A stretch of DNA of 64,000 nt from Clostridia bacterium (GTDB lineage: Bacteria; Bacillota; Clostridia; Christensenellales; Borkfalkiaceae), in assembly GCA_017625565.1 (NCBI GenBank), contig JAGAKN010000017.1, positions 1-64,000 on the forward strand, read 5' to 3'. Every line of letters starts with the position of its first letter. Position 1 is the first letter of the stretch. Below the pieces are notes generated by a model. That model worked only from the letters and a program-made list of their open reading frames with translations, made no database searches and was not told the origin of the DNA. A program made the translations under genes and the position numbers. Shown here one piece after another: positions 20,740-30,880 of the stretch.

Positions 20740-20780
20740 AAAAACCCCGACACGCATGTACGCGTGTCGGGGTTGCTTTT
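20740..20780. terminator. Bidirectional terminator between rsmA and the glycosidase gene
   Basis: Thirteen-base perfect stem AACCCCGACACGC / GCGTGTCGGGGTT (20743-20755, 20762-20774) with T-rich and A-rich flanks. It can serve both convergent units. Confidence 0.92.
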
Positions 20781-20786
20781 ACAAAA

Positions 20787-23700
20787 TTAGCGACGGATAC
20801 TTACGCCGAGTATACCGATAATCACTTCGTTGGCGATTGCTTGGACTTTCACGCAAGCGACCTGTTTTTCGGGATTTAACCGAATACGTTGTACGGTTGC
20901 GTGGTTGTAATCGTTGAAATAGAAGATTTCGTTTTGCGTTTGCAAGGCAGGAACTAACCAGTCGTCCACGTTGATCGGGTACACGAGTTGTACTTCGCTC
21001 GTCGTGCCGTCGTCGTAGCAAACGGTAATCCGCGCGTTTTCCACAAGCGTTTGCATCGAGCTCGTGGTGGAAACGAACAATACAGCGAGCTCCTTGCCCC
21101 TGCCGTTTACGGGAATCGTGAGTTCGGTAGGGAAATTTTCCCAAATGGAAACGCACGCAAGGTTTTCCTTTTCCGTAGGCGTATAAAACGGAATGCCCGA
21201 CGGCGTACGCACCAAACCGTTTGCCGAACGCAACGCACTGTCGTCGACATAGACTTTGTTGTGTCCGCGGTGGTTCCATTCCCAAGCGTACCGACCGTTG
21301 GGGAACGTACCGATGGAATAGCCTTCGGGACGGGGGTGCATATATTCCTGCGTATGCACTTCCGTCATTTTGCAGTTGAAAAGCGGAGTGATATCCAACG
21401 GCTCGAATTCGCCCCCTGCAATCGGCTCGACGGGTATTTCTTTTTTCATAACGGTATAATCGGCAGGCAGGTATGCGTCGAAGTCGTCCTTTTTCACACG
21501 CAAGAATAGGGTGTGCTCGCCTTTTTCGTCTTTGACGGTGGCATACAATTGATTACCGACGACGGAAACGTTTTCCAGGCATTGACAGAGATCGTTGTAT
21601 TCGACGAGTTCTCCGCCTACGACTTCGAAAGCGACTTCGTTGCCACCGAGTACCGCGTCCGCATAACGGAGCGTAGGGAGTTCCCCTTCGCCGTACATAA
21701 CGCGCAATTGCATACGTCCCGTTCTTTCCGTTTCTACCACCAAAAAGCTGTGCCTCGGCGCAGGGATAACGCGATAATCGACGGGAACTCCGTCCAAAAG
21801 CACGGCGTCCACGACCGTGGAGAGCATCGGCAGTTTGAAGGATTTTTGTTCCGTGCGTTCGGTGCAGAAATCGTAGATTTCCGTCAAACCGCGTCTATGG
21901 TATTGCAAGGACAAATCTTGCAAAGTCAAGATAGCGTGTTCCCACTTATCGGGGAAGTTGGGCGCAACCGTAATGCGGTTGTCGAGCGCGTTTATGCCCA
22001 GCCCGAACAACCCTTCGACCATCATGCGAAGGTAGGTGCTGGAAACGTCGGTGAAATCCAAATCCGCAAGGTCTGCAGTACCTCGCGCGGATTGTACGTG
22101 TCCTGCCATACCAGGGTTTTTGCCCGTGAAATAGCAGTCCACAAGCCCGTCCACGATTTGGTTGCCCTGTTCTTTCAGCCCAATCTTGAAATATGCCAAC
22201 GCCAAGTGCGCGTTTTCAGACGGGAAAATCCCGTATGTGGAGTATTTCTTCGGCAACCACGTGGAGCAGTAGGACAAACGCCCGTTCCTGCCCGTAGTAC
22301 GTACGCTGTTGATTTCCGTTTCCGTATAGCGGAGTATGGTATACGCTTGCAGTTGGTCTACGATGTCGCAATCGATCGCAAGGTAAGCGGTGGAAAGTTC
22401 GGGGGACGGGTGAAGTAGACAGTTCCCGATCGTGTCCAAGGATTCGGCGAGAACTCCGCTATTTGCAATCCACAATTTTTCCTGTACGGCGCGACGGATT
22501 TTTTCGGCGCGGTTTTGGAAAACGCGAGCGTCCCGTCCGAGTTGTTGCGCGATTTTCGCCATGGCTACGTTCGCGCGGTAGTTATACGCGCTCGCTTGTG
22601 CGCAACCTGCGCCGTTGTATTCGTGTCCGTCCGAAATCCAAGTATTCAAGAAATTTTGATACAGCCCGTCGTTGTCGTAATCGAAAATGCGTTCTTCCCA
22701 ATCGAGCATGGCGCACAATTCGTCGAAATGCGTTTTTGCGAGTTCGAGATTGCCCGTCCATTCGATATGGTGGAGCATCATATCCGTCGCGCATTCCTGC
22801 ATGTTGTAGTACGCCATCGTTTCGCCGAGCAAGTAGGGGAGATACCCCGTACTGTTTTCAATGTTATGGTATTGTGACGGCCCGTCGCCCTCTCTGGGAT
22901 TACAGCCGTCAAACCAGACGCGCTCCTTGCCGTTTGCCGTTTTTACCATTTGCGCAAGGTGTGTTTTGATGGTTGTTTCCACGCGATCGTTCCAACCGAG
23001 CGTGGTCGGGGCGTACCAATTCCGCCAACCCAAGAAAGGGGAATGATACCCGAACGCGCCGTGATGGAAAGAGTTGGTGTGCCAAGACGAATCCAAAGCG
23101 ATCACCGTCGGCGCAATCGTTAAATCGAGTTCGTTATCCGGCGTTTGTAAGCCGATACACGCGAATTTTGCATAAATTTGTCGTTTGATATACCGTATGG
23201 GATCGGGCATTTTCAGCCAAGAGTTTAGCGTTTTTTCGTCCGCGTTCCGCAATACGAGAATATACCCGTCCAACGTTTTCCCGGGCTCGATTACAGCGGA
23301 AATTTTCACGGCGTTATCGTCGGGATTTACAGGGGAGCTACTCAAAAACGTGCTGGGATATTGTTTTTCTAATTCCTGTGCAGAGCCCGTTTTAAAATCT
23401 GCGTCAAAGCTAGTGGCGATCCGCATACTGCAACCGTTTACGTGGCGTACGCAAGCGCGGTTTTTCCCAAGCTCTACCGTATTATTTACGCAGTCGCTTG
23501 CGTGGAAATAGCGTTTTTTCTCGTCCTTGTATTCAAAACGTCCGATATAATCGGTGATACCGCCGAACCCTGCGACGAAAATCACCCGTTGATCGGTGGT
23601 GATTTTATAGCGAACCAAAAACCCGTCGTCGGGCAATAACGGATACGTTTCGATATGTACGCGCACGTCGGGAAACCAAGGCGACATCTGCGTAAGGTTG

Positions 23701-24041
23701 TATTCCATCCACCCGTTTTTAAATTCCGCGCCGACGTCTTCGGAGTTATGAAACCAACGGGAGCTGATGTCCATATCTTCGGAGTAGAAGAATTCCACCC
23801 GTTGCCCAGGGGTTAAGGCAAGCCCGCTGGTAAGCGTACCGCATTTGGCGTAAAAACTGACGAGATTTTCTTCGAAATCCGTCGTTGCACCCATAAATTG
23901 TGGCGCGTCGCCTGCGAACGTGCAAAATTTCGCGCTCTTATCGTCGTTTTGATGCGAGCCGTAAAGGGTGCGGTTGAAAAGCTCCGCGCTACCGTTAATC
24001 GAATAACCGCTCTTGGTAGGAGTATAACGTGTTTTTGCCAT
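20787..24041 (-). CDS. Large cytoplasmic six-hairpin glycosidase-like protein (DUF4450-type N-terminus)
   Basis: The 1084-residue protein starts TRYTPTKSGYSINGSAELFNRTLYGS, split here as TRYTPTKSGYSING and ELFNRTLYGS, which is the opening pattern I associate with DUF4450 proteins. A beta-sandwich region (about 30-270) leads to an alpha/alpha-barrel of the six-hairpin glycosidase type (about 280-760, with GFWRNW-like FLGWRNWYAPTTLGW, WISDGHEYNGAGCAQASAY and GTADLADLDFTDVSSTYLR). A beta-rich C-terminus (about 780-1084) has a discoidin-like end. No signal peptide is present, so it should be cytoplasmic and act on imported oligosaccharides or their derivatives. The substrate is unknown. It starts 34 bases after the ZIP gene on the same strand. 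Confidence 0.7.
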   Translation of the reverse strand: MAKTRYTPTKSGYSINGSAELFNRTLYGSHQNDDKSAKFCTFAGDAPQFMGATTDFEENLVSFYAKCGTLTSGLALTPGQRVEFFYSEDMDISSRWFHNSEDVGAEFKNGWMEYNLTQMSPWFPDVRVHIETYPLLPDDGFLVRYKITTDQRVIFVAGFGGITDYIGRFEYKDEKKRYFHASDCVNNTVELGKNRACVRHVNGCSMRIATSFDADFKTGSAQELEKQYPSTFLSSSPVNPDDNAVKISAVIEPGKTLDGYILVLRNADEKTLNSWLKMPDPIRYIKRQIYAKFACIGLQTPDNELDLTIAPTVIALDSSWHTNSFHHGAFGYHSPFLGWRNWYAPTTLGWNDRVETTIKTHLAQMVKTANGKERVWFDGCNPREGDGPSQYHNIENSTGYLPYLLGETMAYYNMQECATDMMLHHIEWTGNLELAKTHFDELCAMLDWEERIFDYDNDGLYQNFLNTWISDGHEYNGAGCAQASAYNYRANVAMAKIAQQLGRDARVFQNRAEKIRRAVQEKLWIANSGVLAESLDTIGNCLLHPSPELSTAYLAIDCDIVDQLQAYTILRYTETEINSVRTTGRNGRLSYCSTWLPKKYSTYGIFPSENAHLALAYFKIGLKEQGNQIVDGLVDCYFTGKNPGMAGHVQSARGTADLADLDFTDVSSTYLRMMVEGLFGLGINALDNRITVAPNFPDKWEHAILTLQDLSLQYHRRGLTEIYDFCTERTEQKSFKLPMLSTVVDAVLLDGVPVDYRVIPAPRHSFLVVETERTGRMQLRVMYGEGELPTLRYADAVLGGNEVAFEVVGGELVEYNDLCQCLENVSVVGNQLYATVKDEKGEHTLFLRVKKDDFDAYLPADYTVMKKEIPVEPIAGGEFEPLDITPLFNCKMTEVHTQEYMHPRPEGYSIGTFPNGRYAWEWNHRGHNKVYVDDSALRSANGLVRTPSGIPFYTPTEKENLACVSIWENFPTELTIPVNGRGKELAVLFVSTTSSMQTLVENARITVCYDDGTTSEVQLVYPINVDDWLVPALQTQNEIFYFNDYNHATVQRIRLNPEKQVACVKVQAIANEVIIGILGVSIRR

Positions 24042-24075
24042 AAATCAAAGCTCCTGTAAAAAATTAAAATACTCG

Positions 24076-24837
24076 TTAACCGAGAAAGAAATCGAACGCG
24101 AGCATGACGCAAAATCCTAGTAAAAGGGCGTACGTAGCGCTACGTTCGTTGCCGTGCGCGTGGGTTTCGGGGATCATTTCGTCGCTGACGACGTAGAGCA
24201 TCGTTCCGCCTGCAAATGCAAGCGCGAACGGCAAAATCGCGGTGGAAATGCTTACGGCGAAATAGCCGATTAGCGTACCGATAATTTCTACGATCCCTGT
24301 TGTGAGCGCGATGAAAAAGGTACGACTTTTTTTCATACCCGTTGCGATCATGGGCGCGATAATCACCATGCCTTCGGGGATATTTTGCAAAGCAATCCCA
24401 CCTGCGACGATCAGCGCTTGGGAAGTGTTCTCCGTGCCAAAACTCACCCCAGCTGCAATCCCTTCGGGAAAATTGTGTATAGCGATGGCGATGACAAAGA
24501 GCAACACTTTATTCAGTCGCGCGGTTTTGTCGGGGTGTGTTTCTTGGTCCAAACCCGTGATTTTGTGTAAGTGGGGGACGAGTTTGTCGATTAAATTCAA
24601 ACAAAGCGCTCCGCAAAACAAACCGACGATGGTCACGAAGATCGCACTTTTGCCCTTCCCAAAATCGATGGAAGGGAGTAGTAGTCCAACGATTGCCGCC
24701 GCAAGCATAACGCCTGCCGCGAACGAGAGAATAATATCGCCTGTTTTATGCGACGGATTTTTGAACAAAAAACCCAAGCCTGCGCCAAATACGGTTGCAC
24801 CACCGACGCCGAGCGCCGTTAAAAGAACAAGTTCCAT
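24076..24837 (-). CDS. ZIP family metal transporter (ZupT type)
   Basis: This 253-residue membrane protein with eight hydrophobic segments resembles ZupT-like importers of zinc and other divalent metals. Transmembrane segment 4 holds AIAIHNFPEGIAAGVSFG and segment 5 ALQNIPEGMVIIAPM, the HNxPEG and QNxPEG metal-binding pair. A short His-containing loop (HLHKITGLDQETHPDK) lies between segments 3 and 4. ATG 24837 is the only start that leads directly into the first segment, and it lies 4 bases after the stop of the upstream PII-like gene, implying coupled expression. Confidence 0.9.
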   Translation of the reverse strand: MELVLLTALGVGGATVFGAGLGFLFKNPSHKTGDIILSFAAGVMLAAAIVGLLLPSIDFGKGKSAIFVTIVGLFCGALCLNLIDKLVPHLHKITGLDQETHPDKTARLNKVLLFVIAIAIHNFPEGIAAGVSFGTENTSQALIVAGGIALQNIPEGMVIIAPMIATGMKKSRTFFIALTTGIVEIIGTLIGYFAVSISTAILPFALAFAGGTMLYVVSDEMIPETHAHGNERSATYALLLGFCVMLAFDFFLG

Positions 24838-24841
24838 AATC

Positions 24842-25171
24842 TTAAGCCTTTTCTCCGCCACCCAAGCCGACGACGCTGTCGACGGGCATGGTAAACGCGA
24901 TGCCTTGTCCCGGCGTGTCCAACCCGACTTCTTTATACAGAGCGGACAAAACGTCGTCCTTGATTTTGGTCGGAACAAGGATCATGACGATTTCCTTTTC
25001 AGGATCAACCGTAATATGGAAGAAGGTTTCCGCTTCTTTCGTTGCCGTACCTCGGGCGTTGATGACCGTACCGCCTTTTGCTCCAAATTTTTTCGCCGTG
25101 TCCATGACGACGTCGCTATAACCGCTGTTGACAATACAAAAAATTGCTTCGTGTGAAAATTGCGTAGACAT
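24842..25171 (-). CDS. PII-like signalling protein (second copy)
   Basis: The 109-residue protein has the ferredoxin-like fold pattern of the GlnB/PII superfamily. AIFCIVNSGYSDVVMDTAKKFGAKG corresponds to strand 1 and helix 1 (residues 9-33, read as two runs: AIFCIVNSGYSDVV and MDTAKKFGAKG). GTVINARGT leads to a shortened T-loop, and GQGIAFTMPVDSVVGL (about 89-104) stands for the B-loop and C-terminal strand. The Tyr of the GHTEVYRG T-loop, modified in classical GlnB/GlnK, is absent. In this family a trimer usually binds a nucleotide and regulates a partner; the DUF1538 protein encoded two genes upstream is the obvious candidate. Confidence 0.82.
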   Translation of the reverse strand: MSTQFSHEAIFCIVNSGYSDVVMDTAKKFGAKGGTVINARGTATKEAETFFHITVDPEKEIVMILVPTKIKDDVLSALYKEVGLDTPGQGIAFTMPVDSVVGLGGGEKA

Positions 25172-25183
25172 ATTTGTATACTC

Positions 25184-25564
25184 CTATTTAGAATTGCTTA
25201 AAAACCGATACATGGCAACGCCGATCACGCTGGACATCGGTATGGTAAAGGCGATACCCTTACCCCGTTTCAAAGTGTGAAATTTCTCTTCCAGCGCGTG
25301 CATAGCTTCCGTAGCGACGTCTTCGCGCACGACGCTGAAGATGACGCTCTTTTCCGAATCTTCCAACCCGAGCATATACAAGGTTTCGGAATTTGCCGTG
25401 CCCTGCGCCAAGACGGAAGCTTGGAAATTGATTTCAAATCCGCTTAAAAAATCCATATAGAATTCCGCTTTATTGCGGTTGACGACGGTGATGAGTAATT
25501 TCAATTTGCGGAAATCGGAAACCGCCGTCTTTTTCGATTTTCTCGTTCTTTTCGTTGTTTCCAT
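25184..25564 (-). CDS. PII-like signalling protein (first copy)
   Basis: A 126-residue relative of the next gene, it has a basic N-terminus (TTKRTRKSKKTA) before the fold: KLKLLITVVNRNKAEFYMDF (about 20-39), then a short loop VLAQGTANSE, ENKH-like VIFSVVREDVATEAMHALEEKF, and GKGIAFTIPMSSVIGVAMY (about 101-119). It too lacks the canonical T-loop tyrosine segment. The two copies align best in the G(K/Q)GIAFT(I/M)P segment, so they probably arose by duplication and may form mixed trimers. It lies between DUF1538 and the second copy with gaps of 9 and 12 bases. Confidence 0.82.
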   Translation of the reverse strand: METTKRTRKSKKTAVSDFRKLKLLITVVNRNKAEFYMDFLSGFEINFQASVLAQGTANSETLYMLGLEDSEKSVIFSVVREDVATEAMHALEEKFHTLKRGKGIAFTIPMSSVIGVAMYRFLSNSK

Positions 25565-25573
25565 AACTCTCTC

Positions 25574-27097
25574 CTACATAAACCGAATAATTTGTTCGTC
25601 GTCGGCGTTCAGTATGCGTTTCATGGCGATCTTTTCTTTGACTTTCTTCGTCGCAACCGCTTTAAACCCGAGTGTTTGAATGGTAATCAAGGGTGTCATT
25701 GCAACCATAGCGACCAATCCGAACGCGTCTAAAAGGATTTTGTTTTCGCCCTGCAGTACGGCGCAAACGCCGATAAGGAAAGGTAAAATAAACGTAGACG
25801 TCATCGGTCCGCTGGCTACCCCGCCGGAGTCGAATGCGATCGCCGTGTAGATCTTCGGGACGAAGAAGGACAAGCCGAGCGAAAGGAAGTACCCGGGGAT
25901 TAAATAATATAAAATACTGAAATCCAAAATCGCGCGGAGTACGGAAAGCGCTATGGAAATCCCTACGCCGACGGAGAGCGCGACAAGCATCGCACGCTTG
26001 CTAATTGCTCCGCCCGTAATCGTTTCCACTTGTTTTTTCAAGACGTGGATAGCGGGCTCGGCAAGGACGACTGCAAACCCGAGTGCAAATGCAACGACAA
26101 CCAACACGACGGAGTTTTGCTGGGCGAGTTCCGTACCCATTTTAAAGCCGATGGGCATAAATCCTACGGCGACGGCGGAAAGGAAGATAACCAAGCCGAA
26201 GAAGGTGTAGAAAAGCCCGACGATAATTTGATGAATACGTTTTTTGTGTAATCTCATAAACAGAAATTGTAGGATAAAGAAAAAGATGACAATCGGCGCG
26301 AGTGCGATTACGACTTCTCTTACCGTATGCCCGATCGTCGTACCGAGTTTATCCAAATGAGAACTCATAGAATAATCGGGTAATTGATATAAGACGTCGC
26401 CTTTGGCAAAAATGCCAAGGAACATAACGGCAATGATCGGGCCGATGGAACACAGCGCGATAAACCCGAAACTGTTTTCGCGGTTGCGCTTATCGCCGAT
26501 GGTAGACGCGACGCCGACGCCAAGCGCCATAATAAAGGGCACGGTAATCGGGCCTGTCGTCACTCCGCCCGAATCGAATGCAAGCGGTAAAAACGCCTCG
26601 TTTCCGCGAATGAGTACGAGTGTGACCAACGCGAACATCGTCATATAAAAGAAAGTGAGCAACGCCGAGAGTGGTACGCGGAATACGATACGCACGACGG
26701 AGAGCACCAAAAAGATGCCCACGCCCAAGCCGATGGAAACGGTGAGTAGAGTACCGTTCAAAACGTCTTTCACTTGCGACGCTAATACCGAAAGGTCGGG
26801 CTCGGCAATGGTAATAAACAAGCCCATGACGAAACAAACGAACAGTAGCGTTTTAAACTTGCCCGATTTTGACATACTCGAACCGATTTGTTCGCCCATC
26901 GGAGTCATCGCGATATCCGCGCCGAGATTAAACAGCGCCATACCGACGATTAACGCGACGGCAGAGATAGAGAAGACCAACACTTCTTTTGTAGAGAAAT
27001 CGACGATTGGCGTACAATTTAAAAGTAGCACGATCAGCGTGACGGGCAACACCGACACGACGGACTCCTTGCATTTTGTGATGAGAGCTTTGAGCAT
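25574..27097 (-). CDS. DUF1538 membrane protein, two-repeat transporter-like
   Basis: This 507-residue protein has about 14 hydrophobic segments in two homologous halves. Each half carries the same signature: AFDSGGVTTGPITVPFI near 173-189 and AFDSGGVASGPMTSTFI near 420-436, plus AEPDLSVLA near 99 and AEPAIHVLK in the second half. This is the DUF1538 pattern as I know it; the family is presumed to be a transporter of unknown substrate. I chose ATG 27097, which has AGGATCG upstream; a start at 27163 would add 22 residues that overlap a folded leader and has no ribosome binding site. Two PII-like genes and a ZIP transporter follow. Confidence 0.83.
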   Translation of the reverse strand: MLKALITKCKESVVSVLPVTLIVLLLNCTPIVDFSTKEVLVFSISAVALIVGMALFNLGADIAMTPMGEQIGSSMSKSGKFKTLLFVCFVMGLFITIAEPDLSVLASQVKDVLNGTLLTVSIGLGVGIFLVLSVVRIVFRVPLSALLTFFYMTMFALVTLVLIRGNEAFLPLAFDSGGVTTGPITVPFIMALGVGVASTIGDKRNRENSFGFIALCSIGPIIAVMFLGIFAKGDVLYQLPDYSMSSHLDKLGTTIGHTVREVVIALAPIVIFFFILQFLFMRLHKKRIHQIIVGLFYTFFGLVIFLSAVAVGFMPIGFKMGTELAQQNSVVLVVVAFALGFAVVLAEPAIHVLKKQVETITGGAISKRAMLVALSVGVGISIALSVLRAILDFSILYYLIPGYFLSLGLSFFVPKIYTAIAFDSGGVASGPMTSTFILPFLIGVCAVLQGENKILLDAFGLVAMVAMTPLITIQTLGFKAVATKKVKEKIAMKRILNADDEQIIRFM

Positions 27098-27226
27098 ATT
27101 TTCGATCCTATTCGTTATTTCCGTTAAAACGTTTAGAGGGGACTCCGCCGTTGGGGACGCCATGCAAAGGGTAGACGGCTTTGCGTTCCCGAACGCTTAG
27201 GAGTACAATAATACAAGCATATTATA
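27098..27226 (-). promoter_or_regulatory. Promoter -10 box and structured leader of the DUF1538 operon
   Basis: TATAAT at 27226-27221 (minus strand, weak -35) predicts a start near 27214 and a leader of about 117 nt. The leader holds a hairpin GCGTT-CGGG-AACGC (27196-27183), a longer-range stem GCCGT/ACGGC (27179-27175 with 27151-27147) and a C-rich repeat (GGCGTCCCC, then GGAGTCCCC). No T-run terminator is evident, so any control would act on translation or by another route. It matches no riboswitch class I can name. Confidence 0.4.
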
Positions 27227-27319
27227 ACACGCCCGCGCGAAAAAAGCTAATGATTAGACGGACTTTTTTTGATAATCCATCAAAAATTTAAAAAGAACGT
27301 AAAGGTTTCGCGAAAATTG

Positions 27320-27379: not shown

Positions 27380-27534
27380 AGGAGACGGGCGAACGTCCGA
27401 CCGAAGGAGCGAATCTCTCAGGTGGCCGAAAGGTTGGGAACTGCAATCCGATAGCACTCCGGAGAATCCCGAAAAACGGGTGCCGAAGGGGCAAGGACGA
27501 AAACGTCTAATCTCTCAGGCAAAAGGACAGAGGA
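27380..27534 (+). promoter_or_regulatory. Tandem glycine riboswitch
   Basis: Two glycine (gcvT-type) aptamers lie in a row. The first (about 27380-27450) shows GGAGAC, CCGAAGGAGCGAA and TCTCTCAGGTGGCCGAAAGG. The second (about 27460-27534) shows GGAGAATCCC, GCCGAAGGGGCAAGG and TCTCTCAGGCAAAAGGACAG. A strong terminator hairpin follows 56 bases later, before the symporter gene. In this arrangement glycine usually permits transcription, so the symporter should be induced by glycine; that direction is known for the class, not shown here. Confidence 0.93.
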
Positions 27535-27589
27535 TTGCTTTCACACGCAAGAAAAAGGCGTATTTTGCGCGTGCGAAAAGGAACTGTGT

Positions 27590-27626
27590 ACGGAGTGATT
27601 TTGTGCAAAATCACTCCGTTTTTTCT
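27590..27626 (+). terminator. Riboswitch-controlled terminator
   Basis: A 13-bp perfect stem ACGGAGTGATTTT / AAAATCACTCCGT (27590-27602, 27607-27619) with a T-rich run sits between the glycine aptamers and the coding region. Confidence 0.88.
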
Positions 27627-27689: not shown

Positions 27690-29261
27690 ATGTGGGACAA
27701 GATTATATCTGCTGTAGAAAAGGGTAATGCTTGGCTGAACGAAATCGTTTGGGGTTGGCCGATGATTATTCTCATTCTCGGCACGGGGTTGTTGCTCACC
27801 GTTCGTAGCAGGGTGATGCAGGTTAGAAAGTTTGGTACGTCGCTGAATCAAACGATCGTGCCGACGGTTAAGAGTATTGCCAAAAAGAACAAACACAAGA
27901 GCAACAAAGGTGAAAAATCCATTTCGCAATTTGAAGCGTTTGCGACGGCGATTTCGGGTACGGTCGGTACGGGAAATATCGTCGGCGTGACGTCTGCAAT
28001 CATGACGGGTGGCCCTGGCGCGGTGTTCTGGATGTGGATTTCCGCGTTCTTTGGGATGATCACCAACTATGCCGAAAACGTACTCGGTTTGTTCTTCCGT
28101 AAAAAGGAAAGTGACGGGGACTTTTCGGGCGGGCCTGCGTATTATTTGTCTGAAGGGATGGGTAGAAACGTTCGTGGCAAAGGCGGTACGGCATTGAAAA
28201 CGTTTGGGAAAATTCTCGGCGTGATGGCGGCGGTGTTCTGTACGTTCGCAGCAATCGGTATGAGTGGCGTACAAACCAACAAGATTTCCACAACGTTTCA
28301 AGAAGTCGTTTCGGGCGACAACAAAACGATTGCGTTGATCGTCGGGATCGTCGTAGCCGTCGTCCTTGCGTTGATCGTACTCGGCGGAATTAAGAGTATC
28401 GGTAGAGTAGCGTCTATTCTCGTACCGTTCATGTCTTTATTATTTATTATTATGGCACTCGTGACCATTTTTGCTAACGTGACGGCGATCGGCGGAGCGT
28501 TCGCGATGATTTTTTCGAATATATTCAAATTCAAAGCTGCGGTTGGTGGCGTCGTCGGGTACTCGTTCGCGCAAATTATACAAAAAGGGCTTGCGCGAGG
28601 CGTATTCTCCAACGAAGCCGGGCTCGGTTCGTCGGTAATCGCGCACAGCGCGTCAGAAACGAAAGAGCCTGTAAAACAAGGCTTCTGGGGGATTTTCGAA
28701 GTCTTTTTCGACACGTTTATTATCTGTACGTTGACGGCGCTCGTCATTCTCGTCAGCACGTCCAAAGAAACGTTGTACTTCAGCGGCTTGGCAGATACGA
28801 CTGTTTCCATGCTCGCGTTCAAAGACGTATTCGGCAAAGTTGGGGAAATCGTCTATTCTACGATTATTCCGTTGTTTGCGTTCACGACGATTTTGGCATG
28901 GTCGTATTATGGTGAAAAATCGGTGGACTTCTTGTTCCGTAAAACGGGTATGAAAGGCAGAAAGATTGCAAGGGTCACCTTTAAAATCTTGTACGTGTTG
29001 CTTGTAATCGTGTCTGCGGTGATCGACGGCGAACTCGCTTGGGCGATTTCGGATACCGCAAACGGACTGATGGCGTTGCCAAATTTGATCGGTTTGATGT
29101 TCATGAGCGGTTTGGTCATAAAAATTACCAAGAATTATTTGGATCGGAAAAAGGGCAAGGACGTAGTCCCGATGCTTTCGGCGTACGAAGATTTGAACGC
29201 GGAGTTCGCACAAGAAATTGCGGAAACCGAAGAAACGCAGAAAGAAAGTGTGAACGAATAA
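27690..29261 (+). CDS. Alanine/glycine:cation symporter (AGCS family)
   Basis: The 523-residue membrane protein carries small neutral amino acids with sodium. Family motifs are FEAFATAISGTVGTGNIVGVTSAI (residues about 78-101, given here as FEAFATAISGTVGTGNI), GGPGAVFWMWISAFFGM (about 108-124), GGPAYYLSEGMG and RGVFSNEAGLGSSVIAHS (about 301-318). About eleven segments are visible. AAGGAG precedes ATG 27690. The tandem glycine riboswitch upstream makes glycine the likely physiological substrate. The C-terminal 25 residues are acidic and cytoplasmic. Confidence 0.94.
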   Translation: MWDKIISAVEKGNAWLNEIVWGWPMIILILGTGLLLTVRSRVMQVRKFGTSLNQTIVPTVKSIAKKNKHKSNKGEKSISQFEAFATAISGTVGTGNIVGVTSAIMTGGPGAVFWMWISAFFGMITNYAENVLGLFFRKKESDGDFSGGPAYYLSEGMGRNVRGKGGTALKTFGKILGVMAAVFCTFAAIGMSGVQTNKISTTFQEVVSGDNKTIALIVGIVVAVVLALIVLGGIKSIGRVASILVPFMSLLFIIMALVTIFANVTAIGGAFAMIFSNIFKFKAAVGGVVGYSFAQIIQKGLARGVFSNEAGLGSSVIAHSASETKEPVKQGFWGIFEVFFDTFIICTLTALVILVSTSKETLYFSGLADTTVSMLAFKDVFGKVGEIVYSTIIPLFAFTTILAWSYYGEKSVDFLFRKTGMKGRKIARVTFKILYVLLVIVSAVIDGELAWAISDTANGLMALPNLIGLMFMSGLVIKITKNYLDRKKGKDVVPMLSAYEDLNAEFAQEIAETEETQKESVNE

Positions 29262-29421: not shown

Positions 29422-30483
29422 ATGGAAATCAAGATTGTAAAAACGACGACGCCGGGTGAAATGCCTGCGGAAGAGAAACTCGGGTTTGGGAAAGTATTCA
29501 CCGACCATATGTTTATAATGGATTACGAAGCGGGCAAGGGTTGGTACGACGCGCGCATCGTGCCGTTTGGGAGAATTTCCCTACATCCCGCGTCCACGGT
29601 TTTGCATTACGGCGCGGAGATTTTCGAAGGTTTGAAAGCTTACCGTCGCGCAGATGGTGGCGTGCAACTGTTCCGTCCGATGGAAAACGTAAAACGAATG
29701 AACCGTTCGGCGGAGAGAATGAGTTTGCCTGAAATCGACGAAAAGGATTTGTTGGAGATTTTGACGACGTTTGTAAAGATGGAAGAAAAATGGGTACCGA
29801 AGTCGTTTGGGACGTCGCTGTATTTGCGCCCGTTTTTATTTGGGAACGACGAAACGCTGGGCGTGCACGCCGTTCATCGCGCGACGTTTATGTTGATTGC
29901 ATCTCCTAGCGGTAGTTATTACGCGGAAGGGATCAACCCCGTCGGGATTATGATCGAATCGGAGGACGTGCGTACGGTACGCGGTGGTACGGGGTACGCG
30001 AAGTGCGGTGGAAACTACGCGGCGAGTACTCGCGCAGGCGAACGTGCGGCAAAGAAAGGCTATTCACAAGTTTTGTGGTTAGACGGTGTGGAGCGGAAAT
30101 ACGTTGAAGAAGTGGGCGCGATGAACGTTATGTTCAAGATTGACGGCGAGATTGTCACGCCCAAGCTCACGGGCTCGATTTTGCCGGGGATTACGCGCAA
30201 GAGCTGTATCGAAGTATTGCAATCTTTGGGGTATACCGTTAGCGAACGATTGTTGTCTGTGGACGAGTTGGTGGACGCCATGGAAAGCGGAAGGTTGGAA
30301 GAAGCCTGGGGTTGCGGAACGGCGGCGGTAGTATCGCCGATCGGAAGGCTCGCGTACGGGGACAAGGAATACGTAATAAACGATGGAAAAATCGGGGAAA
30401 TCACCCAAAAACTGTACGACGTACTCACGGGGATACAATGGGGCAAGACGGATGATCCGTTTGGTTGGGTATATACGTTGTAA
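29422..30483 (+). CDS. ilvE: Branched-chain amino acid aminotransferase
   Basis: IlvE transfers the amino group between glutamate and the keto acids of Leu, Ile and Val. The 353-residue fold-type IV PLP enzyme is of the longer BCAT class: ARIVPFGRISLHPASTVLHYG near 44-64 (given as VPFGRISLHPASTVLHYG), EIFEGLKAYRR, ERKYVEEVGAMNVMF near 222-236 with the region C-terminal to the PLP lysine (AKCGGNYAAS holds the Lys, about 194-203), LTGSILPGITRKS near 250 and EAWGCGTAAVVSPI near 290-303. It is transcribed separately from the T-box operon that follows. Confidence 0.94.
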   Translation: MEIKIVKTTTPGEMPAEEKLGFGKVFTDHMFIMDYEAGKGWYDARIVPFGRISLHPASTVLHYGAEIFEGLKAYRRADGGVQLFRPMENVKRMNRSAERMSLPEIDEKDLLEILTTFVKMEEKWVPKSFGTSLYLRPFLFGNDETLGVHAVHRATFMLIASPSGSYYAEGINPVGIMIESEDVRTVRGGTGYAKCGGNYAASTRAGERAAKKGYSQVLWLDGVERKYVEEVGAMNVMFKIDGEIVTPKLTGSILPGITRKSCIEVLQSLGYTVSERLLSVDELVDAMESGRLEEAWGCGTAAVVSPIGRLAYGDKEYVINDGKIGEITQKLYDVLTGIQWGKTDDPFGWVYTL

Positions 30484-30574: not shown

Positions 30575-30880
30575 AACGGCAACCGTTGAAAATAAAAGCA
30601 ATGACGGGAAAAAATCCGTAATACACCTTTTGCAGAGAGTCGGCGCTTTGGTGCGAGCCGATAAGGGATTGCGGAACATACTCCTCCCCGAGCTTCCGAG
30701 AGAACAGCCTAACGCTTAGTAGATTCGGACGGATCCCCCGTTATCGGGAAGCCCTGCAAAAGGGCAAGAGTGGGCGATGTAAATCGTCAAGTAGAGTGGT
30801 ACCGCGGAGAATCCCTTCGTCTCTTTTACATAAATGCGTAGCAGAATAAGCGACGCGTTGGTGTAAAAGGGATTTTTTGT
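30575..30880 (+). promoter_or_regulatory. T-box leader, probably leucine-specific
   Basis: The 430-base gap between ilvE and leuA is a T-box riboswitch. The antiterminator bulge sequence GTGGTACCGCGG is at 30797-30808, and a terminator (CTTTTACA ... TGTAAAAG with TTTTTT) ends near 30880. Stem I contains the AGAGAG bulge near 30635 and GCGGAAC near 30671. CTC occurs twice in tandem at 30681-30686 in the expected specifier position, so uncharged tRNA-Leu is the likely signal. The exact specifier triplet is not certain. Uncharged tRNA would allow transcription of the pathway downstream. Confidence 0.93.

Follow-up and report, generated by a model that had tools for sequence, protein, structure and literature searches.

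PII proteins are known chiefly as nitrogen and carbon sensors, and their pairing with a membrane transporter encoded by a neighboring gene is an established mode, represented by GlnK-AmtB and SbtB-SbtA. SbtB and CPII are PII-like proteins of bicarbonate transport that are paired with an ion transporter, PotN has a gene neighborhood of polyamine transport, and the nif operon contains two divergent PII genes side by side, which code for NifI1 and NifI2. On PII-transporter pairing, see also PMC3831643.

UmpAB of Halomonas zhaodongensis, described in 2017, consists of two homologous DUF1538 proteins forming a heterodimer that catalyzes Na+(Li+, K+)/H+ antiport, for which both subunits are required (PMC5484666). 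The system was active in E. coli from a 4.2-kb clone on which a PII gene was not reported (PMC5484666), suggesting that PII is dispensable for basal antiport. No published link between DUF1538 and PII was found in the literature (open-licence papers). Here, we describe a locus combining the two families, located in a window of 64,000 nucleotides (the whole stretch analyzed) from a Clostridia bacterium.

Organization of the locus

Five minus-strand open reading frames, coding for DUF1538, PIIa, PIIb, a ZIP transporter and a glycosidase-like protein in this order, are separated by gaps of 9, 12, 4, and 34 bases; re-reading of the coordinates in the window thus confirmed the genes, order, and gaps of the initial annotation. 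A Shine-Dalgarno-like sequence can be read before each of the four downstream genes. The terminator scan indicated no strong terminator between the five genes, the sole strong one being located 3' of the last gene (20743..20774, minus strand), where an intrinsic terminator with a 14-pair stem (9 G-C) and a T run ends the operon. A putative extended -10 promoter element, TGTTATAAT, can be read ahead of the operon (27221..27229, minus strand); its -10 box was spotted by eye, and the promoter scan gave no call there. In this genome, the ZIP and glycosidase genes probably share a transcript with the DUF1538 and PII genes.

No regulatory RNA was recognized by Rfam in the DUF1538 leader, the only matches being the glycine riboswitch of agcS and a more distant T-box. 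The divergent agcS gene (27690-29261, plus strand) codes for a Na+:alanine/glycine symporter and is preceded by the glycine riboswitch aptamer and a terminator (27449-27619, plus strand); this divergent arrangement with DUF1538 is seen in 23 of the 46 loci from the genus. The T-box leader (30592-30827, plus strand) lies behind a branched-chain-type aminotransferase gene (29422-30483). A galactose mutarotase-like gene (galM), assigned from the sequence rather than by a family search, immediately precedes DUF1538, in the same orientation, in 23/46 same-genus loci (L036-L076) and is absent in the window.

The DUF1538 protein is a homolog of UmpAB

The first gene (25574..27163, minus strand) codes for a putative monovalent cation/proton antiporter in which an UmpA-like and an UmpB-like half are fused, and comparison with relatives makes the ATG at 27097 (yielding 507 aa) a likelier start than that at 27163. 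The protein matches Pfam DUF1538 (PF07556) in two stretches with 430.8 bits (cut-off 22.6), which agrees with its initial description as a two-repeat membrane protein. It scores 169 bits with the NCBIfam model for UmpA (NF041627; equivalog cut-off 490) and 155 bits with that for UmpB (NF041628; cut-off 500). As judged from these comparisons, it is a homolog of UmpAB and not an equivalog, and its substrate could differ from that of UmpAB, because the scores fall far under the equivalog cut-offs. The initial statement that DUF1538 has no known substrate was wrong, since the UmpAB antiporter had been published in 2017 (PMC5484666) and NCBIfam models exist for both subunits.

The AlphaFold2 model of the fusion protein has a pLDDT of 89.3 and a pTM of 0.90. 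A known transporter fold can be rejected, as Foldseek returned no match under an E value of 0.02 and TM-scores of at most 0.21 among the 50 matches listed, and a PDB sequence search with DUF1538 was empty. Without a significant match among solved structures, a DUF1538 structure would be informative in itself.

The protein ends with the sequence DDEQIIRFM (25574..25603 including the stop codon, minus strand), in which I526 and F528 show no variation across 69 sequences. The last residues are modeled at low confidence, and the tail is probably disordered, as judged from the model. An acidic-II-x-hydrophobic motif is present in the tail at 146 of the 151 fused loci whose PII proteins are of the window type (26% expected from shuffled tails) and at 3 of 19 loci where they carry a GSGIHE-type loop (8% expected), an association which should be regarded as a lead and not as a test, because both motif and loop classes were set post hoc and largely follow clades. 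The tail is therefore proposed only as a candidate docking peptide for the PII proteins.

A non-canonical, asymmetric pair of PII-like proteins

The two following genes code for divergent PII-like proteins, as had been recognized initially. PIIb, the second and better conserved one (24842..25171, minus strand), reaches 27.5 bits with the Pfam P-II model (cut-off 25), and its family profile matches PII proteins in the PDB. PIIa (25184..25564, minus strand) stays below the cut-off with 20.0 bits, but its predicted structure, modeled as a monomer, adopts the ferredoxin-like PII fold with a beta-alpha-beta-beta-alpha-beta core. Foldseek matched this model to PII structures at a probability of 1.00, including CPII (best match, E value 3e-5), GlnK1, PotN (8.5e-5), PstA, and SbtB, with E values between 3e-5 and 2e-4 for the first four.

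Alignment of 400 PII domains to E. coli GlnB as a reference reveals that the classical residues are almost completely lost: Lys90 and Tyr51 are kept in none of the domains, Arg101 in 2, Gln39 in 7, and Arg103 in 10. The B-loop glycine Gly89 is present in 392 of the 400 domains and an equivalent of Lys58 in 364, and the T-loop measures 14-18 residues vs 22 in classical PII proteins. A canonical nitrogen-sensing PII protein can be rejected on these grounds, as the ATP-site residues Lys90, Arg101, and Arg103 and the uridylylation site Tyr51 are lost and the T-loop is shortened. A c-di-AMP receptor of the PstA/DarA type is not supported either: PstA is still among the fold matches, but the domains lack a B-loop insertion relative to GlnB and thus the long B-loop of these receptors.

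Each PII pair is asymmetric, consisting of one conserved domain and one degenerate domain (PIIa), and the two are often fused as a tandem. In a tree of 120 rows, which is based on only 100 usable columns and arbitrarily rooted, PIIa groups with many N-terminal tandem domains, and PIIb with the C-terminal tandem domains and single copies.

DUF1538 and PII genes form a conserved module

DUF1538 was detected in 72 of 101 relatives, and 70 of these neighborhoods were fetched. Adding 80 named GTDB contigs and, from the wider phylum, 56 loci gives 206 loci, and at 202 of them the gene immediately following DUF1538, in the same orientation, is PII-like. Some loci are counted twice, because five or more of the named contigs probably duplicate contigs of the relatives set. 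Two of the four exceptions lie at a contig edge (L040, L073), and the other two carry DUF1538 and no detectable PII gene (L093, L242); a further locus passed over by the counting script (L214) contains two PII genes. Several architectures occur, namely a fused DUF1538 gene with either two PII genes or one tandem PII gene, and split UmpA-UmpB genes with one PII gene, two PII genes or a tandem PII gene. In records from Paraclostridium, Peptoclostridium, and Vescimonas, the gene behind DUF1538 likewise bears a P-II annotation. One locus (L086:1800-5609) harbors two consecutive DUF1538 genes followed by one PII pair.

The co-occurrence of the two families is equally tight. The PIIb profile (A4) was found in 70 of the 72 DUF1538-bearing relatives, one of the two misses being G049, where the locus lies at a contig edge, and in none of the 29 relatives without DUF1538. 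Among 398 genomes of the phylum, DUF1538 and PII are each present in 135 and jointly in 133, corresponding to 133/135 genomes with DUF1538 vs 2/263 without it; the Fisher p-values are tiny but overstated, because the genomes are related and the counts do not represent independent events. The two genomes with DUF1538 only are G152 and G377, the latter on a contig that breaks off shortly after the gene, while apparently stray PII copies in G483 and G416 turned out to be located behind a second, divergent DUF1538 gene.

The initial annotation had named the co-occurrence of DUF1538 with two PII copies in most genomes as a check, which the locus passed (202/206 loci; 70/72 vs 0/29 relatives). Conserved gene linkage and co-occurrence, as in PII-transporter pairs of the GlnK-AmtB type, are both seen here. 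As judged from gene order and genome content, DUF1538-PII-PII is a real and very old three-gene module. The earlier assignment of the PII pair to the DUF1538 transporter is borne out by linkage and co-occurrence, an action of the PII proteins on this transporter being the likeliest idea.

A further occurrence of the module is known from Alphaproteobacteria, where UmpA, UmpB, and PII genes follow in tight order on plasmids of Methylocystis rosea and Chelativorans. On plasmid pGW6_2 of M. rosea (L268:3309-5100), IS66-type genes are present on both sides, and the nearest annotated neighbors on either side are transposase and hypothetical genes, IS66 types included. This gene content suggests that umpA-umpB-PII may represent a mobile three-gene cassette on pGW6_2.

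The two genomes of the phylum with PII only, G434 and G481, carry the PII gene adjoining a carrier of the CitMHS/ArsB/NhaD type. A PII gene was also found close to the closest orthologs of this carrier in G416, G527, and G556, which had been chosen irrespective of PII, and none occurred within 1.5 kb of 26 more distant carrier homologs. The same PII subfamily is therefore located beside such a carrier in five genomes in all (L279, L280, L285, L286, L287).

The ZIP and glycosidase genes are lineage-specific neighbors

The fourth gene (24076..24837, minus strand) codes for a ZIP family transporter, the initial assignment being confirmed by 104.1 bits with Pfam Zip (cut-off 35.1); the score of 150.5 with the ZupT equivalog model is below the cut-off of 252. 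The last gene (20787..24041, minus strand) codes for a large six-hairpin-glycosidase-like protein of 1084 aa, which scores 26.2 and 23.6 bits with six-hairpin glycosidase models, just under the cut-offs, and for which no relative was found in the PDB.

The window and its nearest relative, G018, are the only cases with these two genes directly 3' of the PII pair, and five further genomes of this genus have a ZIP gene close by in different layouts; outside the genus, neither gene adjoins the module at any of the fetched loci. ZIP orthologs (64-89% identity) occur in 44 of the 101 genomes, the window's own included, and are mostly encoded on other contigs; G028, G040, G054, G056, and G072 possess one and lack DUF1538. 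The ZIP gene has other neighbors elsewhere, since two chromate-transporter genes directly follow it in G054 (L276:2172-4099). The glycosidase is present in 4/101 genomes and is unlinked to DUF1538 in G024 and G030. Neighborhood and co-occurrence thus lead us to reject ZIP and glycosidase as members of the unit, and the earlier inclusion of both genes in it did not hold; the neighborhood analysis indicates that they are placed here by chance, the outcome which the initial annotation had named as refuting its proposal. Both were probably recruited recently and should be regarded as standing outside the mechanism.

Proposed function and alternative explanations

We consider it quite probable that the DUF1538 antiporter is controlled by a dedicated, non-canonical PII pair, a reading in which we infer the gating, the ligand, the stoichiometry, and the complex. 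The core of the system would consist of one cation/proton antiporter with both UmpAB subunits fused, and of two dedicated PII-like proteins. PIIa and PIIb may form a ring-shaped hetero-oligomer that docks to the antiporter from the cytoplasmic side, where the conserved acidic-II-x-hydrophobic tail might retain it, and the shortened T-loops would open or close the antiporter in response to a cytoplasmic ligand. This ligand is unlikely to be MgATP/2-oxoglutarate, because Lys90, Arg101/103, and Gln39 are gone, although the glycine of the B-loop and the Lys58 equivalent remain; a different nucleotide or a small anion may be considered instead. For the wider proposal of a PII subfamily that controls cation/proton antiporters, in which a hetero-ring of conserved and degenerate domains binds a non-classical ligand and sets the Na+/K+/H+ exchange by DUF1538, or in some genomes the activity of an ArsB/NhaD-type carrier, we regard the balance as even.

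The near-obligate linkage to DUF1538 would also be typical of structural subunits of the antiporter, and the loss of Lys90, Arg101, Arg103, Gln39, and Tyr51, each in at least 390 of the 400 domains, together with the degenerate state of PIIa, would suit PII-like proteins that do not act as ligand-driven switches. We nevertheless regard such a role as rather unlikely, since the glycine of the B-loop and the Lys58 equivalent are conserved (392/400 and 364/400, respectively), members of this PII subfamily also occur beside a transporter of an unrelated kind, and the Halomonas UmpAB heterodimer is active without a reported PII protein (PMC5484666). The exclusive co-occurrence with DUF1538, the two exceptions to which are located beside a different ion transporter, and the short plasmid cassette, which holds no further gene, make it improbable that the PII proteins are merely co-expressed with the antiporter and target another enzyme or regulator, even though PII proteins are promiscuous.

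The original proposal, namely that all five genes form one unit linking metal import by ZIP and carbohydrate supply by the glycosidase to a DUF1538-PII switch, would account for the tight gaps and for the lone strong terminator that follows the fifth gene, and it agrees with the same gene order in G018 and with the presence of galM, a sugar enzyme gene, directly upstream of DUF1538 in 23/46 same-genus loci. It appears very improbable in view of the ZIP gene being directly behind PII only in the window and G018, its orthologs in 44/101 genomes (own included) lying for the most part on other contigs, with five of these genomes lacking DUF1538, the glycosidase being confined to 4/101 genomes and unlinked in G024 and G030, and the module having neither neighbor at any fetched locus outside the genus.

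Control of the antiporter by its own PII pair, if true, would apply to a large share of the Firmicutes as well as to some Proteobacteria, and DUF1538 would gain a regulatory partner. Such a PII subfamily, essentially restricted to the neighborhood of a Na+/K+-H+ antiporter, would add ion and pH homeostasis to the processes under PII control. From its distribution in sequenced genomes, DUF1538 plus PII looks like a widespread, hitherto undescribed sensor-plus-transporter pair.

Comparison with known systems

The window protein belongs to the same Pfam family as UmpAB, contains both halves and is expected to form two homologous seven-helix units; however, its halves are fused and followed by two PII genes, whereas the Halomonas system has separate subunits and PII is unmentioned. 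The locus resembles GlnK-AmtB in having a PII gene beside a membrane transporter and in the proposed block from the cytoplasmic side, but AmtB is unrelated to DUF1538, and the present PII proteins occur as two divergent copies with T-loops of 14-18 instead of 22 residues and without Tyr51, Lys90, Arg101, and Arg103. SbtB and CPII likewise combine a PII-like protein with an ion transporter, and PIIa finds its best Foldseek match in CPII (E value 3e-5), yet the identities in structural alignments amount to about 20% or less and the partner transporter is unrelated. PotN (PDB 7o4x) shares the PII-like fold with PIIa (E value 8.5e-5) and also occurs in Firmicutes, but it differs from PIIa and PIIb as a single protein with another gene neighborhood. 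NifI1 and NifI2 correspond to PIIa and PIIb in being two adjacent, different copies, whereas their target is nitrogenase rather than a transporter.
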